In this document: in pieces, positions 233 to 62,986 of the stretch
Numbering within the stretch: the stretch's first letter is position 1
Layout: every line of letters starts with the position of its first letter
From: Oscillospiraceae bacterium
GTDB taxonomy: Bacteria > Bacillota > Clostridia > Oscillospirales > Acutalibacteraceae
Reading direction: 5' to 3'
Assembly (NCBI GenBank): GCA_015066525.1
Contig: SVOG01000042.1
Location: 20,207 to 84,206, forward strand
DNA length: 64,000 nt
The notes under the pieces: model-generated
What the model was told of the DNA's origin: nothing
Database searches by the model: none
Seen by the model: only the letters and a program-made list of their open reading frames with translations
Program-made: the position numbers and the translations under genes

Positions 233-399
233 TTTTTTAGGCTCAAGGCTCAAGGATTGCCCTGCGGGCAAAAGGCTCAAGAGAAACGGCGGGCGTTGCC
301 CGCACCCAGAATTAAAATTGCCGTGCGCAACACCCAACACCTTGAGCCTTGCGTGCGCCAGCGCGCTCCTTAAGCGCAGCGCTCCTTGAGCCTAAAAAA
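233..399. repeat. Intergenic heptamer/inverted-repeat element A
   Basis: A 167-bp element bounded by a perfect 16-bp inverted repeat (TTTTTTAGGCTCAAGG / CCTTGAGCCTAAAAAA). Inside are copies of the 7-bp word GGCTCAA, a small hairpin GCGGGCGTTGCCCGC, and AAGCGCAGCGCT near the right arm. The hairpin and following CACCCAGAATTAA resemble the core of the element at 62421. No coding capacity is seen. It sits between the binding-protein and permease genes of one transporter. Confidence 0.7.
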
Positions 400-29822: not shown

Positions 29823-30651
29823 TGTTGACGATTATATCATCAACACACTTAAAGAGGATATTACCAGCGAAGATGTGTCCACCAACGCCGTAATGCCGGA
29901 AAATAAAAACGGCAAAGCCGACCTCATCTGCAAGCAGGACGGTATCGTGTGCGGGCTCGATGTATTTGAGCGCACCTTTAAGATTCTTGATGATAATTCC
30001 CGCTTCGAAGCGAATTTTAAGGACGGCGACGCCGTAAAAAAAGGTGATTTAATCGGTGTCATCTACGGCGACATCAAAGCAATTCTCAGCGGCGAGCGCA
30101 CGGCGCTCAACTATCTGCAGAGAATGAGCGGTATCGCGACAATGACGCGTGAATATGTCAACGAGCTTGCGGGCTACAAGACAGTCCTGCTCGACACAAG
30201 AAAAACAACGCCGAATATGCGCCCCTTTGAAAAGCACGCGGTGACTGTCGGCGGCGCAACCAACCACCGCTACAACCTCTCCGACGGCGTCCTCCTCAAG
30301 GACAACCACATCGGCGCGGCAGGCTCGGTAACAAAAGCAATCAAAATGGCAAAGGCTTACGCCCCGTTTGTCAGAAAAATCGAGATTGAGACCGAGACGC
30401 TCGACCAGGTGCAGGAGGCAATCGACGCGGGCGCGGATATAATCATGCTCGATAATATGGACAACGACACGATGAGAAAAGCGGTCGAAATGATTGGCGG
30501 CAGAGCTGAGACCGAGTGCAGCGGAAACGTCAACAAGGCAAGGCTGAAGGAAATCGCCGAAATCGGTGTGGATTTCGTATCCTGCGGCGCACTCACCCAC
30601 TCGGCACCGATTATGGATGTGAGTCTGAAAAATCTCGCTCCGCTCGATTAG
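29812..30651 (+). CDS. nadC: Nicotinate-nucleotide pyrophosphorylase (quinolinate phosphoribosyltransferase)
   Basis: 279-residue enzyme turning quinolinate and PRPP into nicotinate mononucleotide. The start MKINVDDYIINTLKEDI was chosen from alignment with the family; the track start lies 16 codons upstream inside nadB. DTRKTTPNMRPFEKHAVTVGGATNHRYNLSDGVLLKDNHI is the unmistakable active-site stretch, and IEIETETLDQ, DNMDNDTM and SGNVN complete it. It overlaps nadB by 11 bp. The stop codon TAG is formed at the edge of a heptamer repeat. Confidence 0.96.
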   Translation: MKINVDDYIINTLKEDITSEDVSTNAVMPENKNGKADLICKQDGIVCGLDVFERTFKILDDNSRFEANFKDGDAVKKGDLIGVIYGDIKAILSGERTALNYLQRMSGIATMTREYVNELAGYKTVLLDTRKTTPNMRPFEKHAVTVGGATNHRYNLSDGVLLKDNHIGAAGSVTKAIKMAKAYAPFVRKIEIETETLDQVQEAIDAGADIIMLDNMDNDTMRKAVEMIGGRAETECSGNVNKARLKEIAEIGVDFVSCGALTHSAPIMDVSLKNLAPLD

Positions 30652-30711
30652 CTAAGAGCTACAAGCTAAGAGCTAAGAGCTTGCGGTTTACTCGCTACGC
30701 TCAAACAATTA
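30650..30711. repeat. Heptamer repeat element B
   Basis: Five 7-bp units AGCTAAG / AGCTACA / AGCTAAG / AGCTAAG / AGCTTGC, followed by GGTTTACTCGCTACGCTCAAACAAT. That tail is the reverse complement of the ATTGCTTGAGCGAAGCGAGTAACC core of the element at 62421 with few changes. Confidence 0.65.
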
Positions 30712-39226: not shown

Positions 39227-39312
39227 AGTTTTGAGTTGCTAAACATTAGTATCTTCTCGATGCCTTGCGCAGCTCAAAACTCAATGCTCAAAACTTGTGA
39301 GCGCAGCGAACT
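39227..39312. repeat. Heptamer repeat element C
   Basis: Units GCTCAAA / ACTCAAT / GCTCAAA / ACTTGTG in exact 7-bp steps (39272-39299), an inverted copy AGTTTTGAG on the left, and the core GTGAGCGCAGCGAAC on the right, which runs into the stop codon of the upstream gene. It fills the gap between the two halves of the split MetH. Confidence 0.6.
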
Positions 39313-45695: not shown

Positions 45696-45723
45696 AAAAA
45701 CGGCACCTAAAGGTGCCGTTTTT
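45696..45723 (+). terminator. Terminator of the acyl-CoA synthetase gene
   Basis: AAAAACGGCACCT / AGGTGCCGTTTTT with a 2-base loop. Nearly the same hairpin occurs at 46776. Confidence 0.85.
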
Positions 45724-45754
45724 CAGTTTCCAGAGACCAGTTTCCAGTTTGCAG
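45724..45754. repeat. Heptamer repeat element D
   Basis: CAGTTTC / CAGAGAC / CAGTTTC / CAGTTTG / CAG in exact 7-bp steps. No shared core as in the other elements is seen. Confidence 0.55.
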
Positions 45755-45775
45755 ATAATGTAAAAGGATTGATGA

Positions 45776-60192: not shown

Positions 60193-62385
60193 TTAGTCGC
60201 GTCTCGGTCTGCGGCGATTATTGTCGCGTCTCGGCTTGCGCGGTACATCCTCAATCTCATTCTCGGGAGTCATTCCCTCAATTTCGATGAGCGCATCACG
60301 GCGGGACAGGTCAATCTTGCCCTCGTCGGTAATGCCGATGCATTTTACCATAATGGAGTCGCCGATATGGACAACATCCTCCACGTTCTCAGTGCGCTTA
60401 ATGTCAAGTCTGGATACGTGAACAAGACCCTCAACGCCGGGAGCAATCTTAGCGAATGCGCCGAAGCCCATAATGCGGGTAACCTCTGCGTTATAGAACG
60501 CGCCGACCTCAGGTCCGTTTACAATAAGACCGATTACGGAAGCCGCGCCGTTGCACTTATCAAGGTCCGTGCCGCATACGGTGATTCTGCCGTCGTCCTC
60601 AGTAATGATTTCAACCTCAAAGGTGGACTGAAGCTCCTTGACTACGCTGCCGCCCTTACCGATAACGGCACCGATTTTGTCAGGATCAATGGTGAAAGTA
60701 ACCATCTTCGGTACATACTTGGAAAGTTCCGGTCTCGGCTCGCTGATAACGGGAAGCATTACCTCGTCGAGGATGTAGTTTCTCGCCTTATGCGTCTTAG
60801 CGAATGCCTCTTTGATAATCTCGGGAGTCAGACCGTGTACTTTGAGGTCCATCTGGATAGCGGTGATACCCTTCTTGGTACCTGCTACCTTAAAGTCCAT
60901 ATCGCCGTAGAAGTCCTCAAGACCCTGGATGTCGACCATTGTCATAAAGTCGCCGTAAACGCCCTCGTCGCCGGTGATAAGACCGCAGGAAATACCTGCT
61001 ACGGGCGCCTTAATCGGTACACCCGCTGCCATAAGAGCAAGGGTGGAGCCGCAGACGGAGCCCTGCGAGGTAGAACCGTTGGAGGAAAGCACCTCGGATA
61101 CGACTCTGATGGCATACGGGAACTCATCAACGGACGGGATAACGGGAAGCAGCGCCTTTTCAGCAAGCGCGCCGTGGCCGATTTCACGGCGTCCGGGACC
61201 TCTCGAAGGTTTCGTCTCGCCTACGGAGTAGGACGGGAAATTGTAGTGGTGGATATATCTCTTCTCGGTCTGCTCATCAAGGCCATCAAGTCTCTGCGCG
61301 TCACTGAGTGTGCCGAGTGTTGCGACAGAAAGCACCTGGGTCTGACCTCTGGTGAAGAGACCCGAGCCGTGTACGCGCGCAAGCAGGTCAACCTCTGCGT
61401 TCAGCGGACGGATTTCGTCGATGCCTCTGCCGTCAACTCTCTTGTGCTCATCCTTGAGCCAAGCGCGGACAACGTGCTTCTGTACAAGGTACATAATCTC
61501 ATCGATCTTCTCGGTGTTATCCTCGAAACGCTCGTCGAATTTTTCGTGAACTGCCTCGTAAATCGGGAGGAGTGCTGCGTCACGGACGGTCTTGTCGTCC
61601 GTGTCGAGTGCTTTCTTAACATCCTCGATGCAGAAGTCCTCAATCTCAGCCATTATCTCAGGGTCCGGATTCGATGACTCGTACTCAAACTTCTCCTTGC
61701 CGACCTCGGCTACGATACCCTTGATGAACTGAACAATCTTCTTGTTCTCCTCGTGACCAGCCATAATCGCATTGAACATCGTGTCGTCGTCGATTTCATT
61801 CGCACCCGCTTCAATCATCGCAACGAGGTCCTCGGTCGATGCTACGGTAAGAACGAGGTCGCTCTTCTCTCTCTGCTCGAGAGTCGGGTTAATCACGATT
61901 TCACCGTCTACAAGACCGACATTGACACCGGAAATCGGTCCGTCCCAAGGAATATCGGAGATAGCAATCGCTGCCGATACACCGATCATCGCCGTAATTT
62001 CGGGGGAGCAGTCGGGGTCAACGGACATTACGGTTGCAACAACCGAGCAGTCGTTACGCAGGTCCTTCGGGAATAGCGGACGAATCGGGCGGTCGATACA
62101 TCTGGAAGTCAGAATCGCCTTTTCGCTCGGTCTTGCCTCTCTTCTCTGGAAGGAGCCGGGAATCTTACCGACGGAATAGAGCTTCTCCTCGTAGTCAACG
62201 CTGAGCGGGAAGAAGTCAACGCCCTCACGGGGCTTAGCGGAAGCGGTTACGTTACAGAGAACTTCCGTCTCACCGTAACGCGCCATAATGGATGCGTTTG
62301 CAAGACCAGCCATCTTACCGGTTTCAAGGGTAAGCTTTCTGCCTGCAAGTTCAGTTTCCCATACTTTGAAATTCTTGAAAAACAT
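60193..62385 (-). CDS. pnp: Polyribonucleotide nucleotidyltransferase
   Basis: 730-residue PNPase, a 3'-5' phosphorolytic exonuclease. Two RNase PH domains (second with VHGSGLFTRGQTQVLSVATLG and ATLIMAAGVPI-like LALMAAGVPIKAPVAGI), a KH domain (TIDPDKIGAVIGKGGSVVKELQ) and an S1 domain (YNAEVTRIMGFGAFAKIAPGVEGLVHVS) stand in the usual order. The C-terminus ends in an Arg-rich tail (RKPRRDNNRRRPRRD). It lies behind rpsO, the common order, but a repeat element and a terminator separate them. Confidence 0.97.
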   Translation of the reverse strand: MFFKNFKVWETELAGRKLTLETGKMAGLANASIMARYGETEVLCNVTASAKPREGVDFFPLSVDYEEKLYSVGKIPGSFQRREARPSEKAILTSRCIDRPIRPLFPKDLRNDCSVVATVMSVDPDCSPEITAMIGVSAAIAISDIPWDGPISGVNVGLVDGEIVINPTLEQREKSDLVLTVASTEDLVAMIEAGANEIDDDTMFNAIMAGHEENKKIVQFIKGIVAEVGKEKFEYESSNPDPEIMAEIEDFCIEDVKKALDTDDKTVRDAALLPIYEAVHEKFDERFEDNTEKIDEIMYLVQKHVVRAWLKDEHKRVDGRGIDEIRPLNAEVDLLARVHGSGLFTRGQTQVLSVATLGTLSDAQRLDGLDEQTEKRYIHHYNFPSYSVGETKPSRGPGRREIGHGALAEKALLPVIPSVDEFPYAIRVVSEVLSSNGSTSQGSVCGSTLALMAAGVPIKAPVAGISCGLITGDEGVYGDFMTMVDIQGLEDFYGDMDFKVAGTKKGITAIQMDLKVHGLTPEIIKEAFAKTHKARNYILDEVMLPVISEPRPELSKYVPKMVTFTIDPDKIGAVIGKGGSVVKELQSTFEVEIITEDDGRITVCGTDLDKCNGAASVIGLIVNGPEVGAFYNAEVTRIMGFGAFAKIAPGVEGLVHVSRLDIKRTENVEDVVHIGDSIMVKCIGITDEGKIDLSRRDALIEIEGMTPENEIEDVPRKPRRDNNRRRPRRD

Positions 62386-62420
62386 AGTATTACCTCTCTT
62401 TCATTTTAACATTCTCAAAG

Positions 62421-62610
62421 GGAGGATAATAGTAATAAGTTCAACAGATAAGAATGGAGAATGGAAAATGGAGAATGGAGAATTTCGGGTGGGCGTTGCC
62501 CACACCTAAATTAATTATTGCTTGAGCGAAGCGAGTAACCATAATTCTCAATTCTCAACTCTCAATTCTCAATTATTATACGCTCAACTTACTACTATTT
62601 TTCTTCCTCC
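62421..62610. repeat. Heptamer/inverted-repeat element E
   Basis: About 190 bp between rpsO and pnp. Left arm: five AGAATGG-type 7-bp units (62451-62485). Right arm: five ATTCTCA-type units (62544-62578). Centre: GGGTGGGCGTTGCCCACACCTAAATTAATTATTG and CTTGAGCGAAGCGAGTAACC. Outer parts starting with GGAGGA on one side and ending in TCCTCC on the other are imperfect inverted copies (AGTAATAAGTT / AACTTACTAC). Confidence 0.7.
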
Positions 62611-62631
62611 GCTTTGATAAAAAACATTTAA

Positions 62632-62665: not shown

Positions 62666-62986
62666 TTAGTCCTCAGCCTCTGCCTTAACTTCTACTTCAG
62701 CGTCAGCTGTGTTACGCTCGATTGTGTTACGGATACCGAGCTTTGCAATCAGGTCACGATACTCCTGTACATCGTTCTTGTAGATGTAAGCGAGGAGATT
62801 TCTTCTGTGACCAACCATCTTAAGAAGACCGCGGCGGGAGTGATGATCCTTCTTGTGAATCTTGAGGTGCTCGGTGAGTTCGTTAATTCTCGTAGTGAGA
62901 ACAGCAACCTGTACCTGAGCGGAACCTGTGTCACCCTCGTGAATCGCATATTCCTTAATGATAGCCTGCTTTTCTGCCTGTGTCAT
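62666..62986 (-). CDS. rpsO: 30S ribosomal protein S15 with acidic C-terminal tail
   Basis: 106 residues. The first 89 are standard S15 ([40 protein letters not shown]). The usual length is 88-89, so the extra [15 protein letters not shown] is an added acidic tail. AAAGGTGG precedes the start. pnp lies downstream. Confidence 0.97.

Follow-up and report, generated by a model that had tools for sequence, protein, structure and literature searches.

Why should the sequence between rpsO and pnp be built of tandem 7-bp units, and why should other intergenic loci in the same stretch of DNA be built likewise, each from another word? For decades, heptameric repeats have been recorded across many bacteria. 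An earlier note on the window (the whole 64,000-nucleotide stretch analyzed here) had described five such loci, A to E, as one repeat family with shared cores. The window belongs to contig C38 of the source genome, G000, a 1.64-Mb draft in 66 contigs that is 74% complete. Comparisons were made with 36 further genomes of the same genus, all at moderate distance from G000, and one sister species, G033, was used as a second sample.

Period-7 arrays in the window and its genome

Strict period-7 arrays at a score of 12 numbered 30 in 409 kb of G000, against 0 in a Markov shuffle, and the other periods from 4 to 13 and period 15 yielded 0 to 4 arrays each in the same 409 kb (period 14 is a multiple of 7). 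G033 resembled G000, with 17 strict period-7 arrays in 396 kb. When a looser score was applied to both samples (~805 kb), 60 period-7 arrays were recovered, compared to 1 in Markov sequence.

Per 64 kb, chance supplies ~0.1 arrays at a score of 13 or more, 0.43 at 10 or more, and ~4 at 8 or more. On this scale the description of five heptamer loci is exact for locus E, whose left and right arrays score 22.2 and 21.4, and it extends to loci B (17.4) and D (12.9), each of which is above chance alone. Locus A (10.1) is borderline, and locus C (8.5) is not significant on its own; two better copies of the word family of locus C lie elsewhere in G000, at C29:8622 and C62:13841. Of the two cores said to be shared, GGGCGTTGCCC is carried by both A and E, for which it had been claimed. 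The other, TTGAGCGNAGCGAGTAA, is present in E and, reversed, in B; C has only the partial GAGCGCAGCGAACTA, and A does not contain the core as written. Words in opposite orientation on the two sides of the core are found in E and A and weakly in C. The cores are not confined to these sites, as locus E is matched in part at 51 places in the genome, and the copies outside the five loci keep the 7-nt register. The features are collected in Table 1.

Table 1. Features of loci A to E and of the genes next to locus E, in window positions
Locus	Feature	Position	Strand	Remarks
A	Left array, GGCTCAA	239..257	+	Short, then broken by a small hairpin insert
A	Constant head GGGTGCGGGCAACGCCCGCC	288..307	-	G000:C38:20494-20513
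A	Right arm, CCTTGAG words	340..393	-	Interrupted
B	Array (AGCTNNN)4 AGCT	30650..30681	+	32 nt
B	GAGCG module GTTTACTCGCTACGCTCAAACAA	30687..30709	-	Half element, without a second arm
C	Weak array CTCAAAA/CTCAATG	39271..39295	+	TTTTGAG family; core without GGTG head
D	Solitary array CAGTTTC/CAGAGAC/CAGTTTG	45720..45756	+	
E	pnp, polynucleotide phosphorylase	60193..62385	-	Downstream of locus E; Pfam RNase_PH, PNPase, KH, S1
E	Older rpsO-pnp intergenic hairpin, left half	62416..62445		Element E inserted in the loop of this hairpin
E	Left heptamer tail, AGAATGG x4 + AGAAT	62451..62483	+	G-type arm, AATTGAG/AATGGAG family
E	Constant head AGGTGTGGGCAACGCCCACC	62488..62507	-	Outward from the core on the minus strand; G000:C38:82694-82713
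E	AT-rich linker	62508..62520		Separates the two inward modules
E	Second module CTTGAGCGAAGCGAGTAAC	62521..62539	+	GAGCG palindrome
E	Right heptamer tail, ATTCTCA words	62543..62578	-	T-type arm; minus strand AATTGAG with AGTTGAG variant unit
E	Older rpsO-pnp intergenic hairpin, right half	62582..62616		
E	rpsO, ribosomal protein S15	62666..62986	-	Upstream of locus E; Pfam Ribosomal_S15 E 3e-36

A constant hairpin head and a variable heptamer tail

The main point, which the earlier note missed, is that the arrays belong to paired-hairpin, REPIN-like units. Arrays are mostly paired and inverted, flanking a GC-rich core. Among 47 such two-armed elements, the same word recurs in inverted orientation in 32, and different words are used in 15. 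A few kinds of palindromic module make up the core. Chief among them is a constant hairpin head, ATC[AG]GGTG-YGGGC...GCCCRCC; modules of the CCTCCC, GTAGGG and GAGCG types are mixed among the heads. Exact heads number 18 in G000 and 18 in G033. The elements are dispersed between genes, and no array was found inside the called ORFs of G000, for which the gene calls are crude.

The tail lies 3' of the head and is C-rich, ~32 nt long, and composed of five tetramers at 7-nt spacing. Each array unit joins a constant anchor of 3 to 5 nt (AATT, AGCT, CACT, TTAGT, GCTA, or CAG) to 2 to 4 variable nt, and the commonest arm length of ~32 nt corresponds to (X NNN)4 X. A 7-nt array directly 3' was found at 37 of 43 heads, drawn from 13 species (12 in the genus of the window), compared to a rate of 0.8% in random sequence; arrays of period 5, 6, or 8 beside the 43 heads numbered 0. 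Among 17 heads with the ATC[AG]GGTG tag in the samples from G000 and G033, 16 had an array within 70 nt on the outer side, and the array of the 17th was degenerate. Head-attached tails, 36 in all, comprised 22 different words; 21 of the 36 ended 35 to 37 nt past the head, and C exceeded G in 31 and G exceeded C in 3. From the linkage, the number of words, and the near-fixed tail end, we conclude that the head and the architecture of the tail are constant and that the word is variable.

Copies share variants that are specific to position. In the AATTGAG/AATGGAG family of G000, nearly every copy comprises four units and an additional AAT, and the variant unit AGTTGAG occurs at one register in the majority of T-type arms. 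Recurrence of this unit at a matching position from copy to copy indicates copying rather than independent slippage locus by locus. Together with orthologous sites that are empty in sister species, it upholds the earlier suggestion of a maintained or copied structure over one produced by chance. Between the two arms of the AATKGAG family there is a consistent difference of one base per unit. Whole elements also occur in three to four tandem copies, at G000:C40:17680-17863 and at L619 (G002, site S3), with units of 83 bp and ~137 bp.

We consider it probable that a REPIN-like miniature mobile element lies behind the five loci, which would be copies of it, partial copies, or mosaics. Its unit is the constant head, in which ATC[AG]GGTG is joined to a GC hairpin, with the ~32-nt (X NNN)4 X tail on its 3' side, X being an anchor of 3 to 5 nt such as AATT, AGCT, or CACT. 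Two units, or one unit and another palindromic module, face outward around an AT-rich linker, so that the whole element folds as one long imperfect hairpin.

Within the genus, the distribution of the element is on or off. By exact search, the head was present in 13 of the 37 genomes of the genus and 1 of 23 others, and the reversed head pattern, used as a control, had no match in any genome searched. Heads and AATT-spaced arrays occurred together in 12 genomes of the genus, heads alone in one, and a single array alone in one (Fisher p 9e-8, a value inflated by kinship among the genomes). Among the 23 genomes searched from other families, G041 and G052 had arrays without this head.

Arrays are also found at much greater distance. 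An exact 23-nt (TTGAGAA)n array is present in at least 114 genome stretches, and the phyla among the matches listed include Bacteroidota, Acidobacteriota, Cyanobacteria, Desulfobacterota, Chloroflexota, Planctomycetota, and others. Around the listed stretches, a sample biased by the probe, period 7 is represented by 154 arrays versus at most 17 for the other periods from 5 to 13. In the same biased sample, arrays commonly have an inverted partner on the other side of a hairpin, in some cases with the same AATTGAG/AATGGAG pairing. Very long heptamer arrays, along which the word shifts stepwise, occur at L164 (Moorena), L131, and L204.

The arms have a polarity. Among 90 inverted pairs drawn from every source, the arm on the 5' side was G-rich in 81 and C-rich in 8; in those 81, the G-rich strand points toward the core in the 5'-to-3' direction. 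As a universal rule this was rejected, since in viral contigs the bias was kept by AATT words but AGCT-type words divided 23:18, and period-8 arrays there had the polarity as well (11:3). The polarity is a partial rule that applies to AATT-type words and overall.

Replication slippage, a cause proposed by Mrazek in 2007 as cited in the available text of PMC4692102 and PMC4679880, would make the loci ordinary heptanucleotide simple repeats, homogenized in place by a polymerase that holds 7 nt, with the adjacent hairpins incidental. The presence of heptamer arrays in many phyla, where they outnumber other periods in the probe-biased sample, is in keeping with this explanation, as are the long arrays with stepwise word change at L164 and L131. 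Within the genus, however, tails are near-fixed in length and register behind a constant head, the same variant unit sits at the same position across loci, and tails come in together with the element where sites had been empty, whereas slippage alone predicts a variable copy number and no head. We therefore regard slippage as an unlikely source of these loci.

Turnover and reuse of intergenic sites

In the mobile-element reading, copies insert either downstream of a stop codon, ahead of the next Shine-Dalgarno sequence, or within an intergenic hairpin that was already present, and they turn over fast between species. At five sites, the orthologous positions are empty in several sister species. 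Site S1 (C39:22714) holds the word GGCTCAA in G000, AATTATG in G033, a CTCGGAA word in G006, and another palindromic element in G002, and is a gap of only 4 to 9 nt in four species. At sites S2, S3, S4, and B, few species are occupied, each differently, and most are empty, with 3 to 25 nt. Of the G000 array sites, 15 have mapped flanks, and by a rough count ~10 of these are occupied by another element in G033, where an estimated 11% or so of gene gaps hold an element; the comparison indicates that the same slots are reused. G033 has an abundant second palindromic element, CCTCCCTT...AAGGGAGG, which occurs with a GAGCG module in the same intergenic slots (e.g., g33C6:70553-70800).

With respect to the features of classical MITEs, the arms are inverted repeats, and no fixed-length duplication was seen at the sites compared, all between moderately distant relatives. 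Even the best-conserved region, pnp-rpsO, is at most 88% identical and most of the genome is lower, a distance at which neither a target-site duplication nor a precise junction can be defined.

The reuse of slots could also mean that the site is the unit, a permissive intergenic slot that gathers any palindromic repeat, with heptamers as one of several unrelated families that form mosaics. Such an account fits the excess of reoccupied sites in G033 over the estimated share of occupied gaps and the intermixing of CCTCCC-, GTAGGG-, and GAGCG-type modules with heads. It leaves unexplained the near-obligate linkage of head and tail and the exact period of 7, and we give it little credence as a rival; it can be compatible with the mobile-element reading.

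Locus E illustrates insertion into an older structure. In most sister species, a long hairpin is all that lies between rpsO and pnp; it is conserved through the genus and, folded as single sequences, gives a z of about -8. Its loop contains element E in G000 and a different palindromic element in G033. In G000, element E and the older hairpin fold as one long stem (z -8.5) with one mismatch about every 7 nt in the arms. The conservation of the older hairpin is suggestive of a site for RNA processing or autoregulation of pnp, as judged from predicted folding. At the rpsO-pnp hairpin (window positions 62416-62616; L054-L080), two species carry different loop insertions. A known RNA family was rejected at locus E, where the only match, to a microRNA model, was below threshold and was taken as a hairpin artifact. 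A phage origin of the locus was likewise rejected, with one partial 39-nt match among 50,697 phage records.

The long stem of locus E, which extends the conserved rpsO-pnp hairpin, and the location of 21 of 26 elements between co-directional genes (by the crude G000 gene calls) could be taken to mean that the elements act as RNA, the transcribed hairpins terminating, insulating, or processing operon messages with the heptamer arms as stem. We judge this improbable, given that most orthologous sites are empty in sister species and the occupied ones vary by species, that the two arms have unrelated words in 15 of the 47 two-armed elements, that AATKGAG arms, differing at one base per unit, do not keep their pairing perfect, and that co-directional is the commonest arrangement anyway (228 of 329 neighbors).

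Relation to known repeats and a candidate transposase

The mobile-element reading places these units beside the REP and REPIN sequences associated with RAYT transposases (Bertels and Rainey 2011, PMC3116915; Di Nocera 2013, PMC3733652), which are likewise short extragenic palindromes whose inverted pairs form a hairpin, occur in tandem clusters of whole units, have a RAYT in the genome, and show high species turnover. The element described here is a many-copy extragenic palindrome, forms inverted doublets with a hairpin, and has RAYT homologues in the same genome. Its head starts with ATC[AG]GGTG and not with the GTAG or CGTC tag of REPs, so we file it as a variant that belongs to neither REP superfamily, and each unit adds a 32-nt heptamer tail with a changing word. 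It would add a heptamer-tailed, GGTG-tagged variant to the REP/REPINs, outside the phyla reported in PMC3733652, the text of which contains no occurrence of "Firmicutes" or "Clostridi."

The arrays had been compared earlier to the heptameric STRR repeats of cyanobacteria. This likeness stands insofar as tandem 7-nt units lie in intergenic DNA and the same (TTGAGAA)n array occurs in cyanobacteria and in many other phyla; it does not stand for free-standing tandem repeats. Since the arrays are tails at fixed register on a constant hairpin head, STRR alone is not an adequate filing. The available text of PMC4692102 describes cyanobacterial STRR and heptameric SSRs of Xanthomonas and Nostoc as 7-nt tandem units that are intergenic and sometimes inverted, at common sites with sequence variable between related species. 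That text focuses on a G-quadruplex word and describes no constant head, fixed tail length, or multitude of words per genome. The TAACTGA repeats of Beggiatoaceae, Cyanobacteria, and Bacteroidetes (PMC4679880) are also intergenic heptamers, located just upstream of start codons in distant phyla; unlike the present arrays, they have one word that dominates the genome, with related words rare, and are direct only, with one inverted case. A literature search, mostly without subscription papers, found no description of a constant head whose tail varies in word but keeps a fixed register. The tie of heptamers to a constant head, with its on/off distribution, makes the question "why seven?" testable as one about a mobile element and its enzyme.

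Movement of the element would proceed as single-stranded hairpin DNA through a trans-acting Y1 (HUH) transposase of the RAYT group. Weak matches to PF01797 of about 165 to 190 amino acids, several of them in heptamer-bearing genomes, read as REP-associated tyrosine transposases. Matches to NF047646 (E 1e-18 for a G006 copy and 5e-16 for a G000 copy) were both under the equivalog cutoff. Five RAYT matches are in G000 itself. With a profile built from eight of the matched proteins, matches of more than 200 bits were obtained in nine same-genus genomes, all nine of them head bearing (p 6e-6, with the threshold set afterwards), and in heptamer-bearing G041 of another family. When every RAYT match was counted, the association with heads was lost (p 0.17), and 4 of the 13 head-bearing genomes (G009, G015, G033, and G035, drafts that are 62 to 92% complete) had no RAYT match. 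Y1 transposases of any kind (PF01797) were rejected as the determinant, as IS200-type copies are also present in heptamer-free genomes.

One RAYT gene, in G006:C21, lies between inverted AGGTTTT arrays, a few nucleotides upstream and some tens of nucleotides downstream, and a truncated paralogue in G006:C5 has the same word on its upstream side. The arrangement resembles that of TIRtrons/TIRYT (PMC3733652), RAYT-like genes between long terminal inverted repeats, of which the array-flanked G006:C21 copy and the truncated G006:C5 copy with its upstream word are reminiscent; here, in contrast, the flanking arrays are found only on these G006 copies and not on other RAYT genes. A general flanking of RAYT genes by heptamer arrays was rejected, as only ~4 examined copies had an array within 450 bp, near a rough background, the exceptions being G006:C21, with its closely placed inverted arrays, and the truncated copy in G006:C5.

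Several RAYT genes (L664, L711, L709, L712, and L699) contain two inverted GTAGGG-type palindromes within the coding sequence, where they encode stretches such as VGSGDPDAP and GASGSPLPT, and such palindromes are also dispersed in intergenic DNA. GTAGGG hairpins are a separate family in the genome, with 5 of 22 near an array. The palindromes inside the RAYT genes suggest that the cognate repeat may be of the GTAG type and not this head. Mobilization of the heptamer-tailed head by a RAYT is a lead and not a demonstration.

A bolder reading, which we see as possible but doubtful, is that the tail, instead of being passed on as a set sequence, is made or remade 3' of the mobile head in 7-nt steps to a near-fixed ~35 nt by transposition or repair machinery, each lineage or insertion receiving its own word, and that an equivalent process at other heads would account for the heptamers found across phyla. 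The process would have a formal likeness to telomere repeat addition. If tails are indeed made anew, they would represent a new way to generate sequence diversity at fixed spacing.

Further observations concern the RAYT matches themselves. A second RAYT type of ~250 amino acids occurs in G002 (L667-L669), flanked by its own, different palindromes, such as GTATACAGGGGTCTGACCCCTGTATACG. Another match lies within a 615-amino-acid frame at G006:C10:68847, and L670 (G002:C3) encodes a protein of 559 amino acids in which a putative CCA-adding enzyme is followed, in frame, by a RAYT domain.
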